From the NCBI RefSeq assembly GCF_000243115.2, contig NZ_CP007035.1, positions 4,526,001 to 4,590,000 of the forward strand: 64,000 bases of DNA. The letters run 5' to 3'. This DNA is from Niabella soli DSM 19437. GTDB taxonomy: Bacteria; Bacteroidota; Bacteroidia; Chitinophagales; Chitinophagaceae. The position numbers and the translations under genes are program-made. The notes beneath the pieces are model-generated. The model had not been told where the DNA came from, did no database searches, and worked only from the letters and a program-made list of their open reading frames with translations. Shown in pieces: positions 28,656-46,949 of this stretch (position 1 is its first letter; each line of letters opens with the position of its first letter).

Positions 28656-28668
28656 ATTATTTGATATT

Positions 28669-31600
28669 TTAAAAAGAAAGATCCAAACCAAATGAATAGA
28701 TTTTGCTGATCGGGTAAATGCGCCCGTTTGCTTCTGCAGCGGCCATTTCCGGATCGATGTATTTTGTTTTTAGTTTGGTTGCCGTAAAGATGTTATCCCC
28801 GCTCAGATAGATCCGGCATCTTGAAATTTTGGCTTTGGACAATATGCCCGCCGGCAGTGAATATCCAACGGTCAGGTTCTTCAAACGGATGTATGCCAGG
28901 TTCTGAAGGTAGCGATCGTTCGGAGCATTTAAAGATCCCCCGGCATTCAGGGCTTCATAGCCCCGAAGCTTTGGAAAATAAGCATTGGGATTGTCTTCAC
29001 TCCATACTTTTTCGGGGAAATCAACCGGGACAAAAGAGTAGTAAGGACGGGAATAGGGCCCCCAGAACTTATCCGCATTTGCTCCCGGGTACCAGTCCTG
29101 CTTTCCAATACCCTGAAGGAAAACGGATACGTCGAATCCACTCCAATCTGCTCCTAAATTCACTCCAAAAGTATAACGGGGCTGCTTGTTGCCGATTTTT
29201 ACCAGGTCTCCATGGTCGGCCAGGGTATTCTTCCCGTTATTCACAAATCCGTCTCCGTTTACATCCACAAACTTCATATCGCCGGCCATCAGCTTCGCCC
29301 AGTTGCCGGGCGCACCCAGGCGCTGTTTGTTTACAAAATCCTGGTTCACTGTTTTTTGATAATCCGTGGCTTCGGCATCGGTCTTAAAGAACCCGCCAAT
29401 TTTATAGCCCCAGATCTCCCCCAGTTCCTGTCCAACATAATAGTTGCTTAAAAGGTTTTGCGGGTTATCGAACCGGGTGATCTTTGCCTTATAATCACCC
29501 ACGCCCACACTTACATTATAGCTAAGGGGTTTTCCGGCCACTAACTTATGATCGCTCCAGGCTACCATTACTTCCCAGCCTCTTGTCTGCATATCGCCGG
29601 CATTGGTTTTGGGGGATGCCTCTCCAAAAACGGAAGGCAATGTTTTACCCGCAATCAGCATGCCCAGCGTATTGCGCACATACCAGTCGCAGGTGATGCT
29701 AAGACGATTGTTGAGCAACCCCATATCCACCCCAAAGTCAACCGACTTGGAGCGCTCCCAGGTGAGATCCTGCGAAATGGGGACCGGTACCGCCAGCGAC
29801 TGCGCGCGCGCGCCATTAAAAATATAGCTCAAAGTTGACCGGCGCAATGTTTGAATATAGCCGTAGGTAGCAGCTTCCTGCTGGTTACCCAGCGAACCAT
29901 AGGATCCCCTCAACTTAAATTCGTTGATACCTCCTTTTAGTGCCTGCCAGAAGGGTTCCTGGCTCACCCGCCAGCCTCCGGATACGGATGGGAAAAAACC
30001 ATAGCGCTTGCCGTCAGGAAAGCGGGAAGACCCATCATACCGCCCGTTGAACTCGAGTAAGTATTTTCCTCTGTAATCGTAGTTCAGCCTGGAGAAATAA
30101 CCCTGTAAGGCCCATTCTTCCGCCTGCCCATCAAGCGTAGCCTGGCCCGTAGCCAGCCGGAAAGCATTCAGATCTTCGGAAAGCAAGTCCGTATTGCGTG
30201 CGCTGATCTGCTTATACGTGCGTAACTCCCGGTTGTATCCGGCCATTAATTTAAAATCATGATCTCCCAGCTTTTTGGTATAGCTGCCGTAAAGATTGGT
30301 AGCCTGATATTGTATCAAATTAACCTCTTCCGCAAGATAATCGTTCCCTACATAGCTGATCACGCCCGGATTGATAGACCAGGGCGCCCTGGTACGGCGC
30401 TGCATGGTGGAATACGGATTGAACGTGTAGGAATAGTTACCTGTGATCTCCAATCCTTTAACGGGCTTAAAAGTGGCTCCTACCAGGTTGATCAGCTCTA
30501 ACCGCTTTTCATCCCCTTTTGATTTGCCGTGCAACAGGTCGGCATAGATACCATCACCGATTGAATAACTATTCAAACCGGAACTATAGGTGGCCGTTCC
30601 GTCCGGATTTACGGGAACATAGGAAGGCAACGCATGCACGGTAATAGAAACAAAGTTGGAGTTATAGCCCCAACCCGGGTAGGTATATTTGCTCGTATTA
30701 AAATAGGTGTTGGTGAATAGCTCCAGTTTAGAGGTTAAACGCGCGGTTATTTTAGCCCTGAAGTTATAGGAACTATAATTATCCTGGTTGATACGCATCA
30801 TACCGTCCTTGCCATAAGCCCGGCCGGATACCAGGAAATCGATCTTTTCTGATCCTCCGGTGATCGTTAAGGAATGTTCTCTTGATGGCTGCCAGTCTCT
30901 GAACATGGTGTGCCACCAATCCGTATTGCCATAATACATATACTGATCTTTTCCGCTACGGTTGGTGATCACCACACTGGGCAATGATTTATCGGTCTGC
31001 CGTTTTTTCAGTTCTTCATAATCCTCTTCCGTATAGCGGGTGTAAGTGTTACCCGTTGCCCGTAAGAAGGCCTCATCATTTAATTTTGCGGAAGTATAAC
31101 CATCTGTTATAAAATCAGTGCGCGTGGTTAACCCGGCCCAACCAAAGTTATTGCCGTAGTTCACGTTCATTTTCCCGCGTTTGGCTTTCTTGGTGGTTAC
31201 CAGGATCACACCAAAGGATCCCCGCGCACCATAGATCGCTGCTGATGCGGCGTCTTTCAATACGCTGATATTCTCTACATCTCTCGGATTGATATTATTA
31301 AGGTTTCCAGGAACCCCGTCGATCAGCACCAGGGGAGCGCCTCCTCCGTTTATGGACGTGTTTCCCCTGATGTTAAAACTACCTTCAGCGCCTGGTCTGC
31401 CGCTGTTAAAATTGATATTCACGTTGGGGATCGCGCCCTGTAATGCCTGCGAAATATTGGCCACCGGCCGGTTGTCCAGCACTTCCGATCCCACCTGGGC
31501 TACCGCACCGGTAAGGTTCACTTTTTTCTGCGTTCCATAACCCACTACAATTACTTCATCCAGTTTGTTCTCTTCCTTTTTAAGAACGATGCGCTCATAG

Positions 31601-32181
31601 TTGTGATTTTTGACCGCAACCTCTAACGGAACGTATCCCACATTGGAAACGATCAACACCGCATTTTCTCCGGATACCTTCAGTGAAAAGTTGCCGTCCT
31701 CGCCGGTTGAAGTTCCGTTTACCGTGCCCTTTTCAACAATGCTCACACCGGCGAGCGGGGCGCCGGTTTCGTCTACTATTTTTCCTTTTATATCCATGAT
31801 GGCGATGGCATCCGGCTGCCCGATGATCACTACCAGACCATCATTTATTTTTTTATAGGAATAGCCCGTTAAGCTCAACAGTTGATGCATTACAGAATCA
31901 ATCGTTGCATTCTTTGCCATCAGGTCGATTTTCCGGCTACCCAACCCTAATTCATCTGTATAAAAGAAACGATACTCATACCGCGCCTGTATTTTGCTTA
32001 AAACAGACGATATGGAAGCGTTTTTAACCTCCATGGTGATCCGGCTCTGACCGGTACTATTTATGGAGAAGGCCTGGAAGGAAGTAATAAGAAGAATAAA
32101 AATACTAAGCTTCATCAGCAATAGATATTTGATAATCAAATGCCCTGGCATAAGCGTTCCAGGGCAATCATTTTTTTTCAT
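28669..32181 (-). CDS. SusC/RagA family TonB-dependent transporter with STN signalling domain
   Basis: A 1170-residue outer-membrane importer. The ATG at 32181 is chosen because it leads into a long signal region ending FSINSTGQS; an upstream start would add 16 residues. Parts in order: STN domain (about 48-115, with MEVKNASISSVLSKIQARYE and FFYTDELGL), carboxypeptidase-regulatory-like domain (about 130-205), the SusC-type plug starting DEVIVVGYGTQKK, VNLTGAVAQVGSE and VLIDGVPGN, then the barrel ending YSFGLDLSF. The STN domain is what lets such a receptor signal through FecR to an ECF sigma factor, and both genes lie directly upstream. Substrate is unknown; three phosphoesterases downstream hint at a phosphorylated one. 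Confidence 0.95.
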   Translation of the reverse strand: MKKNDCPGTLMPGHLIIKYLLLMKLSIFILLITSFQAFSINSTGQSRITMEVKNASISSVLSKIQARYEYRFFYTDELGLGSRKIDLMAKNATIDSVMHQLLSLTGYSYKKINDGLVVIIGQPDAIAIMDIKGKIVDETGAPLAGVSIVEKGTVNGTSTGEDGNFSLKVSGENAVLIVSNVGYVPLEVAVKNHNYERIVLKKEENKLDEVIVVGYGTQKKVNLTGAVAQVGSEVLDNRPVANISQALQGAIPNVNINFNSGRPGAEGSFNIRGNTSINGGGAPLVLIDGVPGNLNNINPRDVENISVLKDAASAAIYGARGSFGVILVTTKKAKRGKMNVNYGNNFGWAGLTTRTDFITDGYTSAKLNDEAFLRATGNTYTRYTEEDYEELKKRQTDKSLPSVVITNRSGKDQYMYYGNTDWWHTMFRDWQPSREHSLTITGGSEKIDFLVSGRAYGKDGMMRINQDNYSSYNFRAKITARLTSKLELFTNTYFNTSKYTYPGWGYNSNFVSITVHALPSYVPVNPDGTATYSSGLNSYSIGDGIYADLLHGKSKGDEKRLELINLVGATFKPVKGLEITGNYSYTFNPYSTMQRRTRAPWSINPGVISYVGNDYLAEEVNLIQYQATNLYGSYTKKLGDHDFKLMAGYNRELRTYKQISARNTDLLSEDLNAFRLATGQATLDGQAEEWALQGYFSRLNYDYRGKYLLEFNGRYDGSSRFPDGKRYGFFPSVSGGWRVSQEPFWQALKGGINEFKLRGSYGSLGNQQEAATYGYIQTLRRSTLSYIFNGARAQSLAVPVPISQDLTWERSKSVDFGVDMGLLNNRLSITCDWYVRNTLGMLIAGKTLPSVFGEASPKTNAGDMQTRGWEVMVAWSDHKLVAGKPLSYNVSVGVGDYKAKITRFDNPQNLLSNYYVGQELGEIWGYKIGGFFKTDAEATDYQKTVNQDFVNKQRLGAPGNWAKLMAGDMKFVDVNGDGFVNNGKNTLADHGDLVKIGNKQPRYTFGVNLGADWSGFDVSVFLQGIGKQDWYPGANADKFWGPYSRPYYSFVPVDFPEKVWSEDNPNAYFPKLRGYEALNAGGSLNAPNDRYLQNLAYIRLKNLTVGYSLPAGILSKAKISRCRIYLSGDNIFTATKLKTKYIDPEMAAAEANGRIYPISKIYSFGLDLSF

Positions 32182-32338
32182 AATTTTGTTTTTTACGATG
32201 AGATAGAAAAATGATTGCAGGTACTGCAATTATGTACTGTCTTATTATGGGGAATGTTCCAGCATTTCCCATTTTTATTATATATGTGCTATTTTATTTA
32301 TTCATTTCATATGATTTAATTTTTGGTTTAAGCAATTG

Positions 32339-33367
32339 TTAGTAAATAATTACGATCCCTTTTTCTATTTTATATTTTATTCCGGCAGAGAGTTTTAACG
32401 ATTGTAATACATCTTCAAGGGCATCATTGTCAAATGTGCCGCTAAATGTTCTTGTATTGTTCTTATTCCTGAGCACAATTTTTACGTTATACCAACGCTC
32501 CAGTTCAGGAATAATATTTTCCAGGTATTCTTTTTTAAATACGAGCTTATTATTGACCCATTGGGTTTCCGCAACCGATGAGTCGGCAGCACTGAACGGG
32601 GCCGTCAGTAATTCGATCTGGGGCTGATCCGGCAGGCCGGAGTCTTTGCCCTGTTGCGAATACGTATTTTGCACCACCAGTTTTTCATTAGGCTCCAGCA
32701 TGATCTTTTTATCTTTTGCATGCTTCAGGCATACCTGTACGGAGCCTCTTATTAATGTTGTTTGGGCGCTGGAATCATCAGCATAACAGCGTACATTAAA
32801 GGCTGTTCCAAAAACCCTTACATCAATATTTCTTGTGTGCACGATAAACGGGCGGTCCGGATCATGAGTTACATCAAAAAAAGCCTCACCTGATAATTCC
32901 ACTTCCCTTGTTTTCTTGCCAAATGACTGTTCGTATGTCAACCGGCTGTCGGCGTTGATCCAGACTTTTGTTCCGTCAGGCAGTACAATATTTGTTTTGT
33001 TACCTTTTTTGGTGGCCACAATATTCGGAGCAATATTTCGCACGGGCCTGTTTGAGAAATATAAAAGGCTTGCGGCAATCATTAATAACGACGCAGCAAC
33101 GGCGCTTGCTATCTTCCAGTTAACCGATACGAGCCGGCTCCTTTTTTTGTTTATTTTTTTATGTACCTCCCGGATAAAACTATCTGTTTCAGTATCTGAA
33201 ACAGATGCGTAGTGGGTAGTGGTGGCTATTAAATCATTAAAAAAAGCAGCATAAGCCTGTGCGGCATCCTGCTGCTGAATGAGCTGATGCAGTTCCAACT
33301 GCTCCTGCAGGGTAAGCTCCCCTGCACTTTTTTTCGTTAATAGCTCCCAAATCCGGTTGTTGTCCAT
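32339..33367 (-). CDS. FecR family anti-sigma factor
   Basis: A 342-residue inner-membrane regulator that holds the ECF sigma factor until the SusC STN domain signals occupancy. The start at 33367 (MDNNRIWELLTKKSAGELT) is the family-type N-terminus; a longer frame adds 14 unlikely residues. The cytoplasmic part is about 1-78, the membrane helix is IASAVAASLLMIAASLLYF near 86-104, and the periplasmic FecR domain has IVLPDGTKVWINADSRLTY, GEAFFDVTHDPDRPFIVHT and VFGTAFNVRCY. The C-terminal DUF4974 region ends LKLSAGIKYKIEKGIVIIY. It lies 70 bp after the sigma gene and 157 bp before susC. Confidence 0.95.
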   Translation of the reverse strand: MDNNRIWELLTKKSAGELTLQEQLELHQLIQQQDAAQAYAAFFNDLIATTTHYASVSDTETDSFIREVHKKINKKRSRLVSVNWKIASAVAASLLMIAASLLYFSNRPVRNIAPNIVATKKGNKTNIVLPDGTKVWINADSRLTYEQSFGKKTREVELSGEAFFDVTHDPDRPFIVHTRNIDVRVFGTAFNVRCYADDSSAQTTLIRGSVQVCLKHAKDKKIMLEPNEKLVVQNTYSQQGKDSGLPDQPQIELLTAPFSAADSSVAETQWVNNKLVFKKEYLENIIPELERWYNVKIVLRNKNNTRTFSGTFDNDALEDVLQSLKLSAGIKYKIEKGIVIIY

Positions 33368-33437
33368 TTTAATATCACGATCTGATACTAAAGTGTGTTT
33401 TTGGAACAAAGACCCCTAAATGAAAAGTCTCTTTTTT

Positions 33438-34025
33438 TTAAGATGACCTGGATTTTTTTATAAAGAAGTTGTTTTTATATTCCGGGAAAGCAGCTTCCAG
33501 GGTTTTGGCAAGGCTTTTTAATGCAATGGTCATTTGGGCTTCTACTGTTTTTATCGAGAGATCTAAAATACCGGCCACCTCATTGTATTTCAGTCCCTCA
33601 TCTTTGATCAGCCGGAAGATCAGCCTGCATTTCGGAGGTAATTTATTTACGGCATCAGCAATGAACTTCAGGTTTTCATTGCTCAACATTTTTGAGTCGG
33701 AGTGGGTGTACGCCACCGCAAATGATTCTCCAAATTCATTATAACATACCCGCTTCTTTTTTTTCAGGTGCCCGAAACAGGCATATTTAACCGCTATATA
33801 TAAATAATTAGAGAGACTATTAATGGCGGGCAATGTTTTTTTATTTTCCCATAGTTGTACAAATATATCCTGGATCACTTCTTCTGCCAGCGAACGATCG
33901 TTAAGGATAGAGTTTGCAAAGGACAATAACCCCGGGTAATAGTATCTAAGCAGTTCATTAAAAGCATTTTCATCGCTCTGTTCTGCAACCAGCCTCGTCA
34001 AATAGGGTAAATCCAATCGTTTCAT
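33438..34025 (-). CDS. RNA polymerase ECF sigma factor (sigma-70 family, Bacteroidetes FecI-like)
   Basis: A 195-residue ECF sigma factor. The start at 34025 gives MKRLDLPYLTRLVAEQSD; an upstream start would add 19 residues and is not preferred. Region 2 is NELLRYYYPGLLSFANSILN through EEVIQDIFVQLWENK, and region 4 is LPPKCRLIFRLIKDEGLKYN with the helix-turn-helix EVAGILDLSIKTVEAQM. It should transcribe the susCD genes when FecR releases it. The recognition promoter could not be identified with confidence in the 157 bp before susC. Confidence 0.95.
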   Translation of the reverse strand: MKRLDLPYLTRLVAEQSDENAFNELLRYYYPGLLSFANSILNDRSLAEEVIQDIFVQLWENKKTLPAINSLSNYLYIAVKYACFGHLKKKKRVCYNEFGESFAVAYTHSDSKMLSNENLKFIADAVNKLPPKCRLIFRLIKDEGLKYNEVAGILDLSIKTVEAQMTIALKSLAKTLEAAFPEYKNNFFIKKSRSS

Positions 34026-34268
34026 GAGGCCGCTAAAGTAGAAAATGTATTTTAAATATTTGTAAATGCCTGAAAAAGGCATAAGGCATCCGGCGTAAAT
34101 AAAATAGAATCCATCCCAGATAAATCCGTTTTAAACCGGTTGAACATTTTTGACAGAAGCATTTCTATAGAAATCTTATATTCGCTTTTGGATGAAACGG
34201 TAACGCCAATGAACTAACTTATTTTTACTGTTATTAAATAATGCTCCAAAATATTAAGAACGAACGCT
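34026..34268. promoter_or_regulatory. Divergent control region between the sigma factor and the peptide-exporter operon
   Basis: An AT-rich 243-bp spacer from which the sigma/FecR genes run left and the biosynthetic operon runs right. It holds a small hairpin (ATGCCT/AGGCAT near 34066-34082) and a candidate -7 box TATATTCG near 34187, but no convincing -33 partner at the right spacing. A 13-codon ORF (ATG 34241, stop at 34282) overlaps the 26-codon ORF start in another frame and is not credited. Confidence 0.35.
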
Positions 34269-34349
34269 ATGAAAGTGCGTAAAAGTATATTTACAAAGCT
34301 TGAAAGATACTTGAACCGGATCAATAACCCGAAAACCAAGAGCTCTTGA
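34269..34349 (+). CDS. Small basic peptide ORF (26 codons), translationally coupled to the ABC exporter
   Basis: ATG at 34269 to TGA at 34347-34349. The peptide starts MKVRKSIFTKLERYLNRINN and ends in a short Lys/Ser-rich tail: 8 basic residues to 1 acidic, an amphipathic-looking first half, then an NNP turn. It has no signal peptide, no cysteine and no double-glycine site. Its stop codon overlaps the TTG start of the ABC transporter as TTGA, an arrangement typical of coupled translation, which is the main reason to believe it is translated. It could be a ribosomal precursor peptide for the downstream enzymes, or a leader that sets exporter translation. No family is recognised. Confidence 0.45.
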   Translation: MKVRKSIFTKLERYLNRINNPKTKSS

Positions 34350-36157
34350 TTCAAATTAGCGAAAAAGTCCGCCAGCTAAGGAACAACATCAGCCTTTCTA
34401 AAATCATTTCCCTTGTAAAAAAATCATCGGGGAACAGGCTTTATGTAACCTTTCTTTTTATCCTACTGGAATCGGTGGTGTTTTTTGCTTCGCTCTACCT
34501 GCTTAAAAAACTGGTTGATGTTGTTTCCCATGCACAAAAGAGCTCGGCGGCAGCTTACCACCAGATCATTACCTATGTGGTGGCAGCCGGAGCCGTAGGA
34601 ATCATCTATTTTATCATCCGCTCTTTCAGCGCTTACCTGGTAGAAGCCCAATCTACCCGGGCGGCGGAATATGTAAACGAACAGATCCACTCCAAGGCCG
34701 TTCGCATGGAGCTCGCTTTCTATGAAAGCCCTTCTTATTATGATGTGCTGAAAAGAGCCATGGACAGTGGCGGGGAACGCCCCGGCCAGGTGATAACGGC
34801 ATTGATCGACATTATCAAAAATGCGGCATCCCTGGTAGCCGTGGGGTCTGTCCTCATCATCATTAACTGGATGTTGCTGCCGCTGCTGGCGCTTTTTATT
34901 TTGCCCACCTTGCTGGTTCGGCTCTATTATTCAAAAAAATTAAATAACTGGCGCATTGCGCAAACTCCGCTGGAGCGAAAATCAGCCTATTACAGCAGTC
35001 TGATCACTACTGATACGGCGGCCAAAGAAATTCGTGCATATAACCTGGGCAACTATCTGAAAGACCAGTTTAGTGTTATCCGCCGGATACTCATGAAGGA
35101 AAAACTTTCCATCAACCTCAAAAGAACAAAGCTGGAGGCGGTAACCACCGCTATGTCGAACCTGGGCGTCTTTGCCTGCATCGGCTTTATAGCGTTAAAA
35201 ACCATAAGCGGCGAGGCCTCGCCTGGCGATATAACCTTATTCCTGGTTGCCTTTCCGCAGTCGTTTAGTATTCTTCAAAATATTTCGGGGGGCATTTCTA
35301 TCCTGTTTCAAAACAGCATTTATGTAAACAGCGTGTTTGAATTACTGGAGCTGCCTGCGGGAGAAGCGGCGGCCGGCGTGACCAGCCCTTCTGCGCTTCA
35401 ATCCGTAAAAGAATTACGTTTTCAAAATGTATCTTTTACCTATCCTTACAACACCCGGCCTACTTTAAAGAATATCAATTTGTCCATTCCCGCCGGAAAA
35501 ATTATTGCCATTGCCGGGCCTAACGGCGCAGGTAAATCTACTTTAATAAAGCTGCTTTGCCGTCTGTATGATCCCACGGAAGGTTCGGTGATGTTGGATG
35601 AAACGGATTTTCGAAACTATGACCCGAAGGAATTGCGGGGGATCATGGGCGCTGTTTTTCAGGACTTTAACAAGTACAGTTTTACTGCTGCTGAAAATAT
35701 TTACCTGGGCAATATTCATATACCGTTTGACGCATTGCGGGCAAAGGAAGCTGCTGAAAAATCCGGAGCGGCGCCATTTATAGACCAGTTGCCCCGGCAA
35801 TATGATACGGTTATGGGGCGCCTGTTTGAGGACGGACAGGAGGTGAGCATCGGGCAATGGCAAAAGCTGGCGCTGGCGCGCTGTTTTTATTCCGATGCGC
35901 AGTTCCTGATCCTTGATGAAGCTACCAGTGCACTGGATACAGCATCCGAAGCAGCGCTCTTTAATACGCTTCGTGAAAAACTGAACAACAGAACGGCAAT
36001 CATTATCAGTCACCGGCATTCTGCCCTGCAGCATGCGGACTATATCTATTTTCTTTCCAATGGCTCCATTGCAGAAGAGGGGACAGACGCGGCGTTGATA
36101 CGCAATAACGGGCCTTATGCAAAACTATTTTTAAACAAAAGCAAAAAAGTAACGTGA
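34346..36157 (+). CDS. ABC transporter, fused permease and ATPase (peptide/lipid exporter type)
   Basis: A 603-residue half-transporter, functional as a homodimer in the inner membrane. The start is TTG at 34346: it is the only start codon after the last in-frame stop that keeps the first 115 residues, and it overlaps the preceding ORF's stop. Six membrane helices span about residues 30-320. The ATPase has Walker A GPNGAGKST near 391, the signature VSIGQWQKLALAR near 499 and Walker B FLILDEATSALD near 520. The GQWQK form of the signature is common in bacteriocin and lanthipeptide exporters. No C39 peptidase domain is present, so it would not cut a leader. First enzyme-sized gene of a six-gene overlapping operon. 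Confidence 0.9.
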   Translation: MIQISEKVRQLRNNISLSKIISLVKKSSGNRLYVTFLFILLESVVFFASLYLLKKLVDVVSHAQKSSAAAYHQIITYVVAAGAVGIIYFIIRSFSAYLVEAQSTRAAEYVNEQIHSKAVRMELAFYESPSYYDVLKRAMDSGGERPGQVITALIDIIKNAASLVAVGSVLIIINWMLLPLLALFILPTLLVRLYYSKKLNNWRIAQTPLERKSAYYSSLITTDTAAKEIRAYNLGNYLKDQFSVIRRILMKEKLSINLKRTKLEAVTTAMSNLGVFACIGFIALKTISGEASPGDITLFLVAFPQSFSILQNISGGISILFQNSIYVNSVFELLELPAGEAAAGVTSPSALQSVKELRFQNVSFTYPYNTRPTLKNINLSIPAGKIIAIAGPNGAGKSTLIKLLCRLYDPTEGSVMLDETDFRNYDPKELRGIMGAVFQDFNKYSFTAAENIYLGNIHIPFDALRAKEAAEKSGAAPFIDQLPRQYDTVMGRLFEDGQEVSIGQWQKLALARCFYSDAQFLILDEATSALDTASEAALFNTLREKLNNRTAIIISHRHSALQHADYIYFLSNGSIAEEGTDAALIRNNGPYAKLFLNKSKKVT

Positions 36158-37332
36158 AGCAGCATTACCACCTGTCCATTGTGTCCTGCTGCATCGATGA
36201 TTGGGGCGGAAGCGAAGAGCTGTGGGCCCGGAGCATTCCCCTGTTGCAAAAAAGCAATTGCCGGTTCACGCTTTATAAGGAGAGGATCAATTCCGGTCAT
36301 CCCGAAATCAAAAAGCTGGCAGCGTTGGGCGTGCACTTTACGGAACTCAATCCTCCCCGTTCTATTGTAAGCCGTGCTGCCCGCAAAATACGGGCTTCAA
36401 CCGCTGCGTTGCGTAGCAGGTCCCCGGGGAATTTGATTACCAGCAGTGTGTTGCCGGTACGTTTTCGTAAACACCTTAAAGCGGAGCGCCCGGACCTCGT
36501 AATAGTGGCACAGGGCATCAACTTTGATGGACTGGAATTTGCATTTGAATGTATGCAATTAAGGATCCCTTATGTGATCATTACCCAGAAGGGCGTTGAT
36601 TTTTACTGGCCTCCCCCTGCATCCCGGAGTGCCATGCGCAGCACGCTGCTGGCTGCAAAGCAATGTTATTTTGTATCCAGACATAATCAGCAACTTACAG
36701 AAGAACAGTTTAGCATAAGGCTGTCTAATGCAACGCTTGTATCTAACCCTGTAAAACTGATCAGGGAGCCGCTGCCCTTTCCTCCTGCCGATAAGACGTA
36801 CCGGCTGGCTTGTGTGGGCCGCCTGTTTATAATTGACAAGGGACAGGATATCCTGTTACGGATACTGAGCAGGGAACCCTGGCGCAGCAGGAACATTGAA
36901 GTTTCTTTTATAGGAAGGGGTACAGATGAAGAAGCCATCAGGGAACTGGCTCAATTCCTCGATGTTCCGCATACTGCATTTCATGGGTATAGCGAGGACA
37001 TCAGTGCCATTTGGCAAACGCATCATGCGCTTTTACTACCTTCGCGTAGTGAGGGTATGGCACTATCTGTATTGGAGGCCATGGCTGCGGGAAGAGTAGC
37101 CATTGTTACCAATGCCGGTGGGCACGGTGAAATTATTGACCACGGCACCAATGGATTTATCAGCGATGCCACGGAAACCGCCTTCGAACAGAACATGGAA
37201 CAGGCCTGGCAACAACGGCACGCCTGGAAAGCTATCGGGGAAAATGCGGCTGCCTATATTCATGATCATATACCTCAATCACCAGAAACTGAATTTTCAC
37301 TATCAATATTGAAACAACTCCATGACATCTAA
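36154..37332 (+). CDS. Glycosyltransferase family 4 protein (GT-B fold)
   Basis: A 392-residue GT-B enzyme expected to move a sugar from a nucleotide donor. The start is GTG at 36154, overlapping the exporter's TGA by 4 bp. The C-terminal donor domain has RLACVGRLFIIDKGQDILLR near 221, FIGRGTDEEAIREL near 250, FHGYSED near 273 and the family signature PSRSEGMALSVLEAMAAGR near 295 with its E-x7-E pattern, followed by VTNAGGHGEIIDHGTNGF. The N-terminal acceptor half is less conserved and gives no clue to the acceptor. Overlaps the next gene by 11 bp. Confidence 0.88.
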   Translation: MKQHYHLSIVSCCIDDWGGSEELWARSIPLLQKSNCRFTLYKERINSGHPEIKKLAALGVHFTELNPPRSIVSRAARKIRASTAALRSRSPGNLITSSVLPVRFRKHLKAERPDLVIVAQGINFDGLEFAFECMQLRIPYVIITQKGVDFYWPPPASRSAMRSTLLAAKQCYFVSRHNQQLTEEQFSIRLSNATLVSNPVKLIREPLPFPPADKTYRLACVGRLFIIDKGQDILLRILSREPWRSRNIEVSFIGRGTDEEAIRELAQFLDVPHTAFHGYSEDISAIWQTHHALLLPSRSEGMALSVLEAMAAGRVAIVTNAGGHGEIIDHGTNGFISDATETAFEQNMEQAWQQRHAWKAIGENAAAYIHDHIPQSPETEFSLSILKQLHDI

Positions 37333-38302
37333 ACCTCTTGTATCGATTATAATGCCGACCTATAACAGAGCTGATTCTATTGTGCACGCGGTAAACAGTG
37401 TGTTAAAACAAACCTACCCGTCTATCGAAGTGTTGGTTGTTGACGACGGTTCCACCGACCATACCCGATCGGTTCTGGAAAATATTGAGGGCATCCGGTA
37501 TATATTACAGGAACATGGCGGGCAGGCAAAAGCAAGAAATACGGGGCTGCAGCACGCTTCCGGAAAAATTATTGCCTCCCTGGACTCTGATGATATCTGG
37601 TATCCTGATTTCCTTGAAACCTGTGTTGCAAAACTGGTTGCAGGGAATTATGATTTTGTTTTTGCGAACTGGGATCAGCAATGGGAGGACGGAACCGTTA
37701 CGGACTTCCTTTCCCAGGATCTTTACCTGCAGCCTTATTTTCCAAAAAACGGGGAGGATTGGGTCACATTGAATAATGAAGAAATAAGAAAGATCTATCT
37801 GCATGGCTGCCCATCGCCTTCTTCGTCACTGATCTTCAAACGCTCTTCAACAAAATCGGGGTGGAACAATGAAATCAGGGTCGGGGATGATTGGTTTATG
37901 TACCTGGATATGATCCTTACGGCGCCCCGGACTGCGGCCTTTACGCTAAAACGTTTATGGTCCAAACGGATTGATAAAAAAAATATCTACGACGGGCGCA
38001 AAAGAAACGAGGTGCTGGAAAATCTTTACGTTGCTGATTTGCATAAAATGATACAGGCTTTCAAAAGCAGGCTCTCGAAAAATGAAATAAAAGCGCTTGA
38101 GAATAAGCATATTTACAGCCTGGTGGAACTGGCAAAGCACCATTTGATCCGGGAATTTAATGTCAGAGAAACAGGGAAACTGTTGGGCCGCTCTTTTAGC
38201 ATCAATGCCCTGCGCACATTTAAATCAATTCCAGAAGTGATCAGTTTCGGTTTCAACAGAAAGACGGGCCGGCATAAGACCAGCCGTAACCGCCCCCATT
38301 AA
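37322..38302 (+). CDS. Glycosyltransferase family 2 protein (GT-A fold)
   Basis: A 326-residue GT-A enzyme. Seen: VSIIMPTYNRADSIVHAVNS at the start, VLVVDDGSTDHT near 39 (nucleotide binding), KARNTGLQHASG near 69 and the DxD-type ASLDSDDIWYP near 84, where the metal and sugar nucleotide bind. The second half carries no recognised extra domain; FKRSSTKSGWNNEIRVGDDW fits the usual acceptor-side GDDW motif. No membrane helices. It is the second sugar-transfer enzyme of the operon, 8 bp before the toroid gene, suggesting at least a disaccharide on the product. Confidence 0.9.
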   Translation: MTSKPLVSIIMPTYNRADSIVHAVNSVLKQTYPSIEVLVVDDGSTDHTRSVLENIEGIRYILQEHGGQAKARNTGLQHASGKIIASLDSDDIWYPDFLETCVAKLVAGNYDFVFANWDQQWEDGTVTDFLSQDLYLQPYFPKNGEDWVTLNNEEIRKIYLHGCPSPSSSLIFKRSSTKSGWNNEIRVGDDWFMYLDMILTAPRTAAFTLKRLWSKRIDKKNIYDGRKRNEVLENLYVADLHKMIQAFKSRLSKNEIKALENKHIYSLVELAKHHLIREFNVRETGKLLGRSFSINALRTFKSIPEVISFGFNRKTGRHKTSRNRPH

Positions 38303-38310
38303 CATAGTAA

Positions 38311-39390
38311 ATGACAGAGGAAGCCATGCCTGCCGCAATAATACAGCTCGATCGCAGCATTGACAAAGGGCTCTGCTTTTTAACAGACCACCAGTTACAG
38401 AATGGGGAATTCGTCTGTTATTTCTCTGCCGATCCGCTTATGAAAGAATGGTGCGTTCCTGATTCCGTAACCTTTATAACGGCACTGGTCTGCAATTGCC
38501 TGCTTCCTTTCTCGGAACGCCCGGATGTAAAAACCGCACTGACCCGTTCCTCCAATTTTATCGAATACCAGCGTATGCGGGGCGGTGTTTGGTCCTTTTA
38601 CACAAAATGGCATCCCTCTTTTCCTTATCTGCCCCCCGATATTGATGATACCTGTATGGCTTTGGAGTTCCTCAAAGGCATGGGCAACGACACCCGGCAG
38701 CATTTGCCCGTATTGTATGCAAATCGCAATTCAAAAGGATTGTTTTATACCTGGTTTACGCTGCATCCTACGTTCCCGCTGCATCGCGACAGTTGGCTGG
38801 TGCGTTTGCGCTTTTTGAAACGCCCCTTTAAAAGCTTTTTTTATTTTTTAAGAAATGAGTTCTCCGTTAACGACACCGACGCATTAGTGAACGCAAATGT
38901 TCTGTATTATCTTGGAGCATCAGACAACACCAAAGATGTGATCGCTTATTTGATCAGCTTGTTTGAAAAAGGACAGGAACTGCAAAAGGATAACTGGTAT
39001 CAGAATCCCTTTATTGCCTATTATCTTTATGCCCGTTTGTTTACAAAACCGGTCCCCGGCCTCGCGCCCATCCGTGAAGTGCTACGCGACCGGTTGCTAC
39101 GGCTTATTTCCACACAGGAGCAGTGGCAGGATATAGAACTTGCGGTAACGGTAGCCTCGCTGGTTTACCTGGGGTTTGCAGGCCGGCAGTTGGACGAATT
39201 GACAGCGTTGCTCCTGGAGCGACAACAGTCCAATGGTTCCTGGAGGCGTCATTTCTTTTATGTGGTGCCTTCGGGAAGTTATGGTTGGGGAAGCGAGGAG
39301 ACGACAACTGCCTTTGCTGTGGAAGCGTTGAACGCTTACCGGAACTTTCTGCTTATAAAAAATGATTTGATATCGAATGAAAATCGCTGA
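38311..39390 (+). CDS. Alpha/alpha-toroid protein with class II terpene-cyclase DxDD motif
   Basis: A 359-residue helical protein of the prenyltransferase/squalene-oxidase-repeat type. It contains LPPDIDDTCMALEFL with DIDD at residues 110-113, the acid motif that protonates the substrate in class II terpene cyclases. There is a QW-like repeat QQSNGSWRRHFF at 305-316, and VNANVLYYLG and GSEETTTAFAVEAL as repeat cores. Known two-domain cyclases are larger (about 500-700 residues), so this would be a single-toroid form, or a relative that kept the motif for another use. No signal or membrane segment. It overlaps the UbiA gene by 14 bp, which supports a shared isoprenoid step. Confidence 0.65.
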   Translation: MTEEAMPAAIIQLDRSIDKGLCFLTDHQLQNGEFVCYFSADPLMKEWCVPDSVTFITALVCNCLLPFSERPDVKTALTRSSNFIEYQRMRGGVWSFYTKWHPSFPYLPPDIDDTCMALEFLKGMGNDTRQHLPVLYANRNSKGLFYTWFTLHPTFPLHRDSWLVRLRFLKRPFKSFFYFLRNEFSVNDTDALVNANVLYYLGASDNTKDVIAYLISLFEKGQELQKDNWYQNPFIAYYLYARLFTKPVPGLAPIREVLRDRLLRLISTQEQWQDIELAVTVASLVYLGFAGRQLDELTALLLERQQSNGSWRRHFFYVVPSGSYGWGSEETTTAFAVEALNAYRNFLLIKNDLISNENR

Positions 39391-40372
39391 GATCACCCGT
39401 TCTTCTGAATGGTGGGAGTATAAGCTTTCACCGTTGCTGGCCATTGGTTATGCAACGATTTTGAGCGCGGGGAAGGAGATTGGTGATTATTGGACAAGAC
39501 TATTGCTCATCTTACTTTCGCTGGCCGCCGGGGCTGCTTACGTTAGCATCATAAATGATATAACAGATCTGAAAGACGATCGGATGGCGGGGAAAAAGAA
39601 CCGCATGCAGAACCTGCCGGCTTATTATCGGTGGTTGCTTCCGGTTGCAGGTCTCTTATCGGGCCTTTTCTTCGAATATGTACTTTATTATCCTGATACC
39701 CGCTCCATGATCTTCTATGCCGTTCCATGGGTCTTATTCAGCCTGTATTCTTTTCCCCCCTTCCGGTTCAAGAAGCGGGGTATCCCGGGCATCCTCTGCG
39801 ATGCGGGAGGTTCCCATGTTTTCACGGGTTTATTAATGATCAGCAGTACCTGCTTCGCCATGCACGAGAGGGTGCCTCCGTTGTGGATGTTTGCCATAGG
39901 CGTCTGGTCATTTTGCTATGGACTTCGGGGCATTTTATGGCATCAATATACCGACCGCGTGAACGATCAGCGTGCCGGTTTGCAAACCGTTGCGGTGCGG
40001 ATCCCGCCACATAAATTCAAACGAATAGAAGCGGGCCTGTTTGTAACAGAGCTTCTGGCCACATTGGGTATTTTTTTATACCTGGGCAATCCCTGGGTTA
40101 TCGGGGTCTATCTATGTTATCTGTTGCTCTGTTTTTTACGTTACCGTTTTTTGAAATTGGCGCCGGTAGTGGTATTAAGTAAACCGGATACGCCCATTCA
40201 GATCCTGCAATTGGACTATTTTCAATGTCTTTTTCCGCTAACCTTGCTGGTCTGTGCCGCTGTTCAGAATATATACAACCTGTTGCCGCTGGCTTTTCAT
40301 CTGCTGCTTTTTCACGGCACCCTTCGCCGCATTTTTGCTGATCTGAAACTAATCTACAAGGTGTATGCCTGA
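39377..40372 (+). CDS. UbiA-family membrane prenyltransferase
   Basis: A 331-residue polytopic membrane protein with both UbiA aspartate motifs: NDITDLKDD at 60-68 (NDxxDxxxD) and DRVNDQRAG at 193-201 (DxxxDxxxG). These bind the magnesium-diphosphate of a prenyl donor. About eight or nine membrane helices are visible, the expected number. Quinone or heme pathway genes are absent here; instead it closes an operon of exporter, two glycosyltransferases and a toroid protein, so it more likely prenylates a specialised product or acts as a UbiA-type terpene cyclase. It ends 10 bp from the convergent DUF3037 gene. Confidence 0.85.
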   Translation: MKIAEITRSSEWWEYKLSPLLAIGYATILSAGKEIGDYWTRLLLILLSLAAGAAYVSIINDITDLKDDRMAGKKNRMQNLPAYYRWLLPVAGLLSGLFFEYVLYYPDTRSMIFYAVPWVLFSLYSFPPFRFKKRGIPGILCDAGGSHVFTGLLMISSTCFAMHERVPPLWMFAIGVWSFCYGLRGILWHQYTDRVNDQRAGLQTVAVRIPPHKFKRIEAGLFVTELLATLGIFLYLGNPWVIGVYLCYLLLCFLRYRFLKLAPVVVLSKPDTPIQILQLDYFQCLFPLTLLVCAAVQNIYNLLPLAFHLLLFHGTLRRIFADLKLIYKVYA

Positions 40373-40382
40373 AAGGGAACGG

Positions 40383-40769
40383 CTATAGCACCATTTTTTC
40401 CAATAAGGTATGAACCAGTCCTTCAGTGCTTACCGCAAGACCGGGATGTACTTTTGAACATTGAATCATCGTACTTCGCGTAGCGGTCAGCCAGCGGAAC
40501 CGGGATGCGGCGTCCAGCAAGGCAATGCCCGATCCGGACTGTCGGTCGCCTGCCGCAATGGCCTGAAAGGCGCACAGGTTCTCCTCTATTCCATTCATAT
40601 CTACCTCGGCGTAAAGACTAAAAATTTTTTCTTTTTTCAGTGAAACCGCACACTCAATCATTTTCCTGCTTTTGCAAAAAACGATTACGCCCACATTAAC
40701 GAATTCCTCTCTTTCCACACGGGGCACTACGCGCAGCACCGCGTACTCATATACCAGCAGCTCTTGCAT
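40383..40769 (-). CDS. DUF3037 family protein
   Basis: A 128-residue cytoplasmic protein that starts MQELLVYEYAVLRVVPRVER, with REEFVNVGVIVFCKSRKMIE near 20-40, which is the DUF3037 signature. Its function is not known. The ATG lies inside the end of the HipA-like kinase gene (23-bp overlap), and this kinase-DUF3037 pairing is a recurrent neighbourhood in Bacteroidota, suggesting that the two proteins act together. No catalytic residues are evident. Confidence 0.8.
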   Translation of the reverse strand: MQELLVYEYAVLRVVPRVEREEFVNVGVIVFCKSRKMIECAVSLKKEKIFSLYAEVDMNGIEENLCAFQAIAAGDRQSGSGIALLDAASRFRWLTATRSTMIQCSKVHPGLAVSTEGLVHTLLEKMVL

Positions 40770-41532
40770 CTAATGCGGTTTTTAGAAAAGTAAAGGAATT
40801 TTTTAAACGCCACGACAAAAATTGAAGATACACTTCTCTTGCGGCTTCCGGGTCGCCCTGCGCTTCTTCATATTGCAACCACTCCATCGGCAACAGGTTT
40901 ACGATCTCATGTAGCTTTTGCTGGGTTAACAGGCTTTTGCAAAATTCGTCTGCTTCTTTCAACAGGGAGGCTTCCTGAAGCAACACATGATCTTTTATTA
41001 AAGGGAACGCGCTTTTCATTTGCACAGGCCAGCTTTCCCAGTTATGATGAAAATATAAACAGGCCCCATGATCAATCAGCCAAAGTTCATTGTGCCACAT
41101 AAGCATATTGGTGTTGCGCGCGGTGCGGTCCATATTGGTAAGAAAGGCATCCATCCATACGATTATTGATGCCATCATAGGCTCCACTTTTGTAACGGCC
41201 GGATCAAAGGTTATGGCGCCGCTTAAATAATGCAAGGCCAGGTTCAGCCCCCTGCTTGCTTTCAACAGATCCTGGATCTCTTCATCCCCTTCGGTTCTTC
41301 CAAAAGCTTCATCCAAATGGGCATACACCAATTCCGGAACTTTTAATTTCAATTCCCGGGCCACCTCACCGCCGATGAATTCGGCCACCAGGGCTTTTAC
41401 CCCCTGGCCGGCCCCACGGAATTTCAAGGCGTATAAAAAGCCGTCGTCGGCTTCTGCAATAGCCGGAAGGGACCCTCCTTCCCGTAGCGGTGTTACATAT
41501 CTTGTTACCTGAACTGACCGGATCTCCTGCAT
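40747..41532 (-). CDS. HipA-like kinase-fold protein
   Basis: A 261-residue protein related to the kinase half of HipA. The glycine-rich start is GSLPAIAEADDGFLYALKFRG with a candidate ATP lysine near 37. The catalytic loop is DAFLTNMDRTARNTNM at 128-143 (D-x-x-x-x-N-x-D with later N), and the DFG-equivalent is LIDHGACLYF at 152-161. It lacks the N-terminal HipA domain and there is no HipB-like antitoxin gene beside it; instead DUF3037 overlaps its 3' end. A -7 box TAGGTTTG on the minus strand (41553-41560) fits its promoter. It could be toxin-like or a small-molecule kinase; untested. Confidence 0.8.
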   Translation of the reverse strand: MQEIRSVQVTRYVTPLREGGSLPAIAEADDGFLYALKFRGAGQGVKALVAEFIGGEVARELKLKVPELVYAHLDEAFGRTEGDEEIQDLLKASRGLNLALHYLSGAITFDPAVTKVEPMMASIIVWMDAFLTNMDRTARNTNMLMWHNELWLIDHGACLYFHHNWESWPVQMKSAFPLIKDHVLLQEASLLKEADEFCKSLLTQQKLHEIVNLLPMEWLQYEEAQGDPEAAREVYLQFLSWRLKNSFTFLKTALDARAAGI

Positions 41533-45098: not shown

Positions 45099-46949
45099 TC
45101 ATCCTTTAATCCGGAGCACAATAATCTTTCCGTCCATGGTGGTAACCACAATTTTGCGATCGTCCATAAATTGCAGATCATGTATCAGGCAATTGGCCAC
45201 TTTATGTATCCATTTGGTACGGCCCGTTGCGCGGTCAAACGCGGCAATGACGCCTTTGTCGCTAAACGCATACACCACACCTTTGCGCTCTGTAATTACG
45301 GAGGGGTTCAGTTCATAATTAAATACATTATCGGTCTTCCAAACAATCGTTGCCGTATCTGCCCTGGTGGCTACCCCAATTAGTTGCCCCTGCATCGTTT
45401 TCGCAAAAACAATAGCACTGTCGTTGGATAGTCCCATTGATTCGCGTACCCAGTATTCATTCCATCTTTTTTTCCAGATCAGCTTTCCTGTTGCCGCGTC
45501 AAGAGCCGTCATATACCGGTCCGGCGCCACAATAAACACCCGGCCGTTCGTTGCAACGGGCAAACAGGAGGCGGGGGAGAACATGCGGTTGGTGTATCCA
45601 TCGTTATAGACCCAATCGGCAGTTCCTGTTTTCATATTAAGCGCATACAATTCATTGCCCCAGCTTCCAAAAATCAGTTTGCCATCGTAAACCAGCGGCA
45701 TTGCTTTTACAAAATTCTTCACCCGGTCATAGGTCCAGATGATCTTACCCGTGTTTAGATCCAGCGCGCGGAACAGGCCTTCCGACGAACCTGCAAATAC
45801 TTTTCCCTCCCTGATGACCGGCGTTGCAACAATAGACTTTGGGGTAGCGGTGGTCCAATAGGGTTTACCTGTTGCGGCATCCAGGCAATAGATCGTGCCG
45901 TCTGTTGAGGGAACTACGAAACGATTACCTGCTATTGCCGGCGATGCATATATCTTTCCATTTGTCGCAAACCGCCATACCACTTTGTTTTTTATGGGAT
46001 CCACAGCCAGAACGCGGCCGCGGCTGTCCGGCGTAATGATCAGCCCCTTATACAAGGCAAACCCGTTTCCGATATCAGAAGAATCCTGGAACCGCCCGAT
46101 TTCCCGCACCTGCGGGTACTGGTCATTTATCGCATAAGAGGGCCGGGGATATTTTTTCAGTTCTTTGTCAAAATGATGATCTTGTAAGGCTACAGCCGCC
46201 CAGGGCGCTTTCGTGATGCTGCCGGGAATTCTTGTGCTGTAGGAGATGCTTCCCTTTTCGATCGTTACAATATTATACCCGCCAATACTGTCTTTTGCGC
46301 GCAGGTTCGACCGGCCCATAATACCCGGAATGCCTTCGAAATCAAAGCGCCGGTTTTGGTGCCCATGACCGCAAAGCCATGCCTCGATATTATGTTTTTT
46401 TAAACGATCTGCCACCTCGTACCAATTATTCAGGGAGGAATCCAGGGGGTAATGATCTACGAAAATGACCGGCTCCCTGCCGGGAATGGTTGCCAAAACG
46501 GAATCCAGCCAAACAATATTACCATACGGTACCTGGCCGGGGCTCATTTTCATATTAGGGCCACAGTTCGCCCCCAGGAAATGGATCCCTTCATATTCAA
46601 AAGCAAATACTTCGTTGCCAAACACCCGGTTAAAAGTATTGGTACCGCTTTCCGACCAGTTGTCATCATGATTGCCGGGAATAATATACAGTGGTTTATT
46701 GAGGGAATCCAGGATTTGTTTGGCCAGTTTTATTTCTGTATCGGCGCCAAATTCGGTAATGTCGCCGGAAGCGATCACAAACTTAAGATCGGGATTGGCG
46801 TTTATATCCCGGACGGTTCTTCTCAGATCTTCGTCGGCATTATTGGAGCCGATATGCAGATCGGAAATATGGGCAAATTGAAAACGGGCTTGTGCGCGGA
46901 TCGCCTGGCAAAATAAACAAAGCAACAGCGCGGCAACTATTTTTTTCAC
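45099..46949 (-). CDS. Secreted fusion of a metallophosphoesterase with a PQQ-like beta-propeller
   Basis: A 616-residue exported protein (signal MKKIVAALLLCLFCQAIRAQ). The N-terminal calcineurin-like domain (about 21-260) has all the metal motifs: HISDLHIGS, VIASGDITEFG, IIPGNHDDNW, VDHYPLD and CGHGHQNRRFD. From about residue 300 to the end there are BamB/PQQ-dehydrogenase-type blades, for example SPAIAGNRFVVPSTDGTIYCL, LDAATGKPYWTT, LDLNTGKIIWTYD and LDAATGKLIWKKRW. No PQQ-binding residues are claimed; such propellers often serve as binding scaffolds. Phosphatase plus scaffold suggests a periplasmic enzyme docked to a partner or polymer. Confidence 0.88.
   Translation of the reverse strand: MKKIVAALLLCLFCQAIRAQARFQFAHISDLHIGSNNADEDLRRTVRDINANPDLKFVIASGDITEFGADTEIKLAKQILDSLNKPLYIIPGNHDDNWSESGTNTFNRVFGNEVFAFEYEGIHFLGANCGPNMKMSPGQVPYGNIVWLDSVLATIPGREPVIFVDHYPLDSSLNNWYEVADRLKKHNIEAWLCGHGHQNRRFDFEGIPGIMGRSNLRAKDSIGGYNIVTIEKGSISYSTRIPGSITKAPWAAVALQDHHFDKELKKYPRPSYAINDQYPQVREIGRFQDSSDIGNGFALYKGLIITPDSRGRVLAVDPIKNKVVWRFATNGKIYASPAIAGNRFVVPSTDGTIYCLDAATGKPYWTTATPKSIVATPVIREGKVFAGSSEGLFRALDLNTGKIIWTYDRVKNFVKAMPLVYDGKLIFGSWGNELYALNMKTGTADWVYNDGYTNRMFSPASCLPVATNGRVFIVAPDRYMTALDAATGKLIWKKRWNEYWVRESMGLSNDSAIVFAKTMQGQLIGVATRADTATIVWKTDNVFNYELNPSVITERKGVVYAFSDKGVIAAFDRATGRTKWIHKVANCLIHDLQFMDDRKIVVTTMDGKIIVLRIKG

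Follow-up and report, generated by a model that had tools for sequence, protein, structure and literature searches.

The five-gene operon considered here lies on the plus strand at positions 34346-40372 of a 64,000-nucleotide stretch of DNA (hereafter the window; contig NZ_CP007035.1, positions 4,526,001 to 4,590,000) from Niabella soli DSM 19437, whose genome of 4.70 Mb forms a single contig. Its products are an ABC exporter (ABC), a GT-B and a GT-A glycosyltransferase (GT4 and GT2), a toroid protein resembling class II terpene cyclases (TOR), and a UbiA-superfamily membrane protein (UBI), and this gene set recurs far beyond chance. The operon may make and export a cyclic terpenoid that has been glycosylated, or else a lipid bearing one, a reading that is given about an even chance of being correct. 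Every enzyme belongs to a known superfamily, and the five-gene combination is apparently undescribed.

Layout and protein families of the operon

The genes are densely packed, with frames at 34346-36157, 36154-37332, 37322-38302, 38311-39390 and 39377-40372 that overlap by 4, 11 and 14 bp and leave one gap of 8 bp, an arrangement that probably reflects a single transcript with coupled translation. The original prediction had listed six plus-strand frames, counting a short upstream frame, and a re-reading of the frames bore out all six with their overlaps and gap. The identities it assigned also held, those of the exporter, the two glycosyltransferases and the UbiA protein through Pfam and that of the toroid through PDB sequence search and fold.

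TOR (38311..39390, plus strand, 359 aa) was matched by no Pfam or NCBIfam model. Its single sequence nevertheless matched drimenol synthase in the PDB (E 4.5e-9), and a profile of 26 TOR sequences matched drimenol synthase (7.7e-14), AstC (7.9e-9) and squalene-hopene cyclase (1.8e-6). The AlphaFold2 model, built from an alignment of 20 sequences, reached a pLDDT of 93.3 and has an alpha/alpha toroid like that of solved class II cyclases. Foldseek placed AsDMS first (7.4e-14), followed by the Actinoplanes protein 6ij1, myxobacterial squalene-hopene-type cyclases, MstE (5.2e-8) and drimenyl diphosphate synthase; complement C4 fragments, which have a related toroid, were also matched at about 1e-5. 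These profile and fold matches ruled out an orphan fold and identify TOR as a class II terpene cyclase beta domain that makes up the whole protein. No fused N-terminal HAD domain with a DDxxE motif was found, the protein consisting of the 359-aa toroid only, so TOR is not a HAD-TCbeta enzyme. A DIDD motif occupies residues 110-113, and D110 and D112 are invariant in 26/26 aligned TORs, the frameshifted Niabella copies L014 and L015 (DVDD, DSDD) and the distant L038 having been set aside from the alignment. The middle Asp of the corresponding DxDTT motif is described as critical for cyclisation in a report on AsDMS (PMC9128629). The predicted activity of TOR is a protonation-initiated cyclisation.

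UBI (39377..40372, plus strand, 331 aa) matched Pfam UbiA with 49.0 bits against a cutoff of 34.2, and its profile matched chlorophyll synthase (E 2e-4); a phmmer search of the PDB with the single sequence gave 0 matches. The AlphaFold2 model (pLDDT 91.0) was closest in fold to an archaeal UbiA (2.3e-5), digeranylgeranylglyceryl phosphate (DGGGP) synthase (6.2e-3) and a membrane phosphoribosyltransferase (8.6e-3). Both Asp-rich motifs, NDxxDxxxD and HQxxDxxxD, are retained in 24/24 aligned UBIs, an alignment that left out fragmentary copies such as L010, L015 and L036. UBI is predicted to be an integral-membrane, Mg2+-dependent prenyltransferase.

ABC (34346..36157, plus strand, 603 aa, TTG start) is a half-size exporter with the Pfam domains ABC_membrane and ABC_tran. 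Its nearest NCBIfam model is MsbA (TIGR02203), which scored 273.4 bits, under the 602-bit cutoff for an MsbA equivalog, and PglK was also among the neighbours (131.6 bits against a cutoff of 1000). The closest PDB chains were of the ABCB type, so homology is no guide to the cargo. GT4 (36154..37332, plus strand, 392 aa, GTG start, Pfam Glycos_transf_1, with the N-terminal motif WGGSEELW) and GT2 (37322..38302, plus strand, 326 aa, Pfam Glycos_transf_2) are both retained in relatives.

Recurrence of the gene set and possible exchange of the cyclase

A contig scan with a seven-sequence toroid alignment, which finds sequences matching one of two short patterns, reduced 105 pattern matches to 22 confirmed loci, all with Bacteroidota titles. 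All five genes are present at 14 of these, in varying order. Five more, four from Hymenobacter and one from Fibrivirga, hold TOR, UBI, GT4 and GT2 together with an ABC-2-type permease and a separate ATPase, without the window-type exporter. The permease family is common to these five loci (Pfam match in L032, none in L026), and in the two loci tested, Wzt_C in the ATPase passed its cutoff in L032 and fell short of it in L026. Named strains carrying the module belong to Niabella, Pedobacter, Chitinophaga and Paracnuella, and those with the other exporter to Hymenobacter and Fibrivirga; synteny thus extends to several Bacteroidota groups outside this strain, and its absence there, which would have refuted the original prediction, was not borne out.

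Both TOR and UBI are present in 7/17 Niabella genomes and neither in the other 10/17. TOR was found in 7/99 relatives, all of its own genus, and in 8/395 genomes of a phylum sample, where three besides the own genome matched at E <1e-90 and four weakly (3e-23 to 2e-4); these counts speak against a wide occurrence of TOR. UBI was found in 62/395 of the phylum sample, yet only six matches including the own genome had E <1e-60, and 4/6 of these also have TOR, G266 being one of the two that do not. Genome G200 lacks the window-type ABC only.

Pedobacter allows the relation between the two enzymes to be followed within one genus. Among 145 genomes, UBI was found in 30 and TOR in 21, and 21/21 TOR genomes also have UBI (Fisher p 1.4e-18, uncorrected for relatedness). 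Eight of the nine genomes with UBI and without TOR were read, G564 being left out as a contig-edge match, and ABC, GT4, GT2 and UBI are all retained in 8/8. Two of them (G173 and G486) have, between ABC and GT4, a methyltransferase that could act on a sugar. Two others (G525 and G609) have, on the other strand and overlapping the end of UBI, a CrtC/AsqO/Diels-Alderase-like protein with weak family scores; such proteins stand beside UBI at L138 6926-7996 and L142 6661-7725. This label is tentative, since 5/6 Pfam matches in the two loci fell under cutoff (CrtC in L142 reached 23.5 against 22.5 bits), the PDB match to CghA had E 0.031, and NCBIfam returned 0 families. No replacement gene was recognised in the other four TOR-less loci read. 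In G535 the gap between GT4 and UBI is 98 bp, and P. yonginense has TOR at that place. For comparison, 8/21 TOR-bearing Pedobacter loci were read, and ABC, GT4 and UBI are present in 8/8, with GT2 nearby in 7/8.

Among UBI, GT2, GT4 and ABC the correlation of pairwise distances is 0.71-0.86 (26 loci; 20 for ABC); for TOR it is 0.50-0.60 with UBI, GT4 and GT2 and 0.77 with ABC on the same loci. The distance correlations weakly suggest that TOR is the more freely exchanged part, and TOR is proposed as an exchangeable tailoring step on a core of UBI, GT2, GT4 and exporter.

Some diverged toroids also turned up. At L038 9128-10993 an N-terminal PhyH-type dioxygenase is joined to a distant toroid (26% identity), and a member of the Wzm-like permease family, UBI and a sulfotransferase lie nearby. 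Fibrivirga algicola has two diverged toroid cyclases in tandem (L026 8905-11059). In G308, a distant toroid (L051 1803-2762, E 3e-23) lies near large ABC exporters, one of which presumably has a C39-peptidase-like N-terminus, and perhaps belongs to a different system.

Proposed pathway and alternatives

The pathway proposed for the operon, in which each reaction and its place in the sequence are inferred, would be as follows. A prenyl diphosphate, probably C15 or C20, would come from housekeeping synthases; two prenyl synthase genes (PF00348) are present in the genome. UBI would join the prenyl chain to an acceptor drawn from primary metabolism. TOR would protonate the far double bond via the middle Asp of DxDD (D112) and close the rings, before or after UBI, its substrate being either the free diphosphate, as in drimenol synthases, or the prenylated product, as in MstE. 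GT2 and GT4 would then attach sugars, and ABC would carry the glycoconjugate across the inner membrane. The glycosylated, isoprenoid-bearing product of the original prediction gains support from this gene set, in which cyclase, UbiA protein, the two glycosyltransferases and the exporter fit together, and from its synteny in other genera; the ribosomal-peptide part is not supported, as described below.

Tailoring genes beside other copies bear on this pathway. Clustering revealed one protein family common to the four Hymenobacter loci and G200, and in the three of these five that were tested with Pfam it is an unusual enzyme, an acyltransferase (polyketide synthase/FabD-like) fused to a cytochrome P450 (L024 6283-8757, L032 6500-8761, L049 10593-12839). 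Such fusions represent terpenoid-type tailoring and therefore count for the terpenoid reading. In addition, Acyl_transf_3 proteins adjoin the copies at L032, L048 and L138, with similar genes beside some others, and sulfotransferase-like genes occur in G200 (24.6 against a cutoff of 27, hence below it) and in L038 (above cutoff).

Several observations weigh against the terpenoid reading. The third position of DxDD is Asp in 18 of the 26 aligned TORs and is Ser in 6 and Asn in 2, so that 8/26 have another residue there. Three of the 22 toroid loci do not show the gene set: L028 has TOR at a contig edge, L036 has a truncated ABC and a broken UBI with no GT4 or GT2 found, and L038 has the TOR-PhyH fusion plus UBI. 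G258 has TOR, UBI and GT4 and no GT2 or window-type ABC at the thresholds used, the TOR-bearing Pedobacter G482 has no GT2 nearby, and the 12-kb contig of G266 holds UBI and GT2 only. Shared species history is uncontrolled in all the distance correlations, and that of TOR with ABC (0.77) is above that of GT4 with ABC (0.71). Relatives of GT2 and GT4 serve mostly in polysaccharide or lipopolysaccharide synthesis. Many of the Pedobacter copies read are flanked by sugar-nucleotide and glycan genes such as FdtA and DegT and by TIGR04325 methyltransferase genes, and several by a decaprenyl-phosphate-phosphoribosyltransferase-like UbiA gene with HAD and GMC oxidoreductase genes. With such neighbours a role in polysaccharide synthesis is conceivable, to which TOR and UBI might contribute in place of a terpenoid pathway.

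The corresponding alternative, judged unlikely but with some weight, is an envelope- or capsule-type polysaccharide: GT2 and GT4 would assemble a short polyprenyl-linked glycan, ABC would flip it, and UBI and TOR would add or modify an isoprenoid part of the carrier or anchor. MsbA and PglK, the types that neighbour ABC, are lipid-linked glycan flippases. The Wzm/Wzt-type transporter of the Hymenobacter copies, with Wzt_C above cutoff in L032, agrees with such a role, as do FdtA, DegT, Core-2/I-branching and GT-C genes beside Pedobacter copies and the TOR-less G266, whose 12-kb contig holds only UBI and GT2. Against it, a Pfam search confined to the five operon proteins identified neither the polymerase nor the initiating phosphoglycosyltransferase (sugar-phosphate transferase) that mark a Wzx/Wzy-type polysaccharide cluster. 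Moreover, the copies at L031 and L048 have no nearby glycan genes, judged from the frames listed, their neighbours presumably being housekeeping genes, and P450-acyltransferase fusions are unusual in such pathways.

A different division of labour is conceivable for the two isoprenoid enzymes, although it is improbable: UBI could be a class I-type (UbiA-type) terpene synthase acting on a cyclic diphosphate from TOR, and the free terpene alcohol would be glycosylated by GT2 and GT4 with nothing prenylated. TOR and UBI are adjacent or overlapping both in the window and in most of the TOR copies read from Pedobacter, and AsDMS, with its HAD domain, is reported to cyclise its substrate and then lose the diphosphate (PMC9128629). 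However, UBI occurs without TOR in 9/30 Pedobacter genomes, so its substrate need not be the TOR product, and the two genes stand apart in other Niabella copies and in those of Hymenobacter.

Similarly improbable, and a shade more so, is an archaeal-type ether lipid, for which UBI would act like DGGGP synthase on prenylglyceryl phosphate, TOR would cyclise the chains, and GT2 and GT4 would glycosylate the head group. The fold of UBI is nearest to archaeal UbiA and then to DGGGP synthase, and a PcrB/GGGPS-like gene (L163, G000:C1:2146969-2147637), a possible source of prenylglyceryl phosphate, is found in 17/17 Niabella genomes. A glycerol-ether acceptor is thereby possible, yet the gene is just as common in the ten Niabella genomes that lack the module and so is no specific partner, and identity to the archaeal enzymes is 15-19%.

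The last alternative concerns the region before ABC. The original prediction had treated a 26-codon ATG frame (34269..34349, plus strand), which overlaps the ABC start by TTGA, as a peptide gene, so that the product might be built on a ribosomal peptide. Three-frame translation, judged by eye, revealed no counterpart upstream of ABC in six other Niabella carriers, namely L012 (Niabella G011, ABC 74% identical) and five others. Instead, a promoter-like block, TATATTTA (34285..34294, plus strand), lies inside the frame, about 60 bp before the ABC start, and its TAnATTT core is invariant in 7/7 aligned Niabella upstream regions. It starts 60 bp before ABC in the window and 56-65 bp before it in the six of seven Niabella loci that were measured. 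Compared with the Bacteroidota -7 consensus TAnnTTTG, the window copy has A in place of the final G. Among 11 measured loci of other genera TAnnTTTG was present in 0, and 6/11 had no TAnnTTT within 220 bp, so the TAnATTT element is a Niabella feature. Furthermore, when the 263-bp intergenic region was put through 2000 dinucleotide shuffles, 29.8% of the shuffled sequences contained an ATG open reading frame of at least 26 codons, and 54.3% did so when GTG and TTG starts were included. An RNA structure across the peptide region was also considered and rejected (z 0.12). Given the missing counterpart, the conserved block and the shuffle result, the 26-aa frame is very probably spurious, a product of chance, and the region before ABC is probably a promoter. 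The alignment of this region suggested in the original prediction thus yielded a promoter-like block and no peptide. TOR precedes ABC in 5/6 other Niabella carriers with the block between them, so ABC-GT4-GT2-UBI may start independently there.

No conserved precursor peptide, the mark of ribosomally synthesized and post-translationally modified peptides, emerged from the Niabella upstream comparison, and a Pfam search of the five operon proteins turned up neither a maturation enzyme nor a leader peptidase, nor a C39 peptidase domain in ABC. It is therefore extremely improbable that the product is a ribosomal peptide, prenylated or glycosylated, whose precursor is the 26-aa frame: in favour of this are the existence of the frame and its overlap with the ABC start, and against it stand the lack of conservation, the underlying block, the chance-expected length and the missing enzymes.

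The terpenoid reading can be widened into a family, a proposal that is tentative and held at clearly less than even confidence. A fixed core of UbiA protein, GT2, GT4 and exporter would be combined with a swappable prenyl-chain enzyme (class II cyclase, methyltransferase, CrtC/AsqO/Diels-Alderase-like protein, or nothing) and a swappable exporter (MsbA-like or Wzm/Wzt-like), giving Bacteroidota terpenoid glycolipids of a class not seen so far, either exported or in the envelope, and TOR and UBI would possibly share one substrate like the two domains of HAD-TCbeta enzymes. If true, this compact five-gene pathway would open an unexplored class of Bacteroidota terpenoid glycoconjugates. The module is conserved, compact and testable, and a comparison of related strains that differ in having the cyclase gene could put the role of ring closure to the test.

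On the minus strand and divergent from the operon, an ECF sigma factor, FecR, a SusC-like TonB receptor and a SusD-like protein (26907-34082) form an ordinary Bacteroidota uptake locus. Convergent with it lies a pair of a DUF3037 protein and a HipA_2-like kinase (40383-41532, minus strand), which is close to the module in 7/7 Niabella carriers; some assemblies have it in pieces, and in L012 a further gene comes in between. A calcineurin-like phosphoesterase fused to a PQQ-type beta-propeller is encoded at 45099-46949 on the minus strand.

Relation to known systems

The original prediction knew of no described pathway with this gene set, and the search made here likewise found none in the family libraries or in the open-licence PubMed Central (PMC) literature, subscription papers and preprints lying outside its scope. 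Moenomycin, phenalinolactone and brasilicardin clusters also make and glycosylate a terpenoid, and differ in enzymes, hosts and cluster make-up. MsbA and PglK are half-transporter exporters like ABC, which scores far under both cutoffs. Archaeal UbiA (4tq3) and DGGGP synthase (7bpu) share the fold and the Asp-rich motifs of UBI at about 15-19% identity.

MstE of Scytonema (PDB 6sbb-6sbg), a type II terpene cyclase, also consists of a standalone beta domain and is about as long as TOR, so the domain arrangement of TOR alone is not new. The two are 15-18% identical. MstE, too, is paired with a UbiA-type prenyltransferase, and no glycosyltransferase and exporter module is known to accompany it.

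The best fold match is with the HAD-TCbeta drimenol synthases (AsDMS; PDB 9m7d, 9m7f, 9mhs), which together with the fungal AstC share with TOR the beta-domain toroid. The HMMER alignment also shows that they have the acidic D-x-D region in common with it and, at the C-terminus, a similar stretch of the GS-x-ELTTAF type. In contrast to the HAD-TCbeta drimenol synthases, TOR has no HAD domain, is encoded with a UbiA protein, two glycosyltransferases and an exporter, and carries DxDD, DxDS or DxDN rather than DxDTT. Fusion of a beta domain to a HAD phosphatase has been proposed as the origin of the drimenol synthases in one account (PMC12365925), and TOR may be regarded as a naturally occurring relative, free of any fusion partner, of the beta domain in that proposal.

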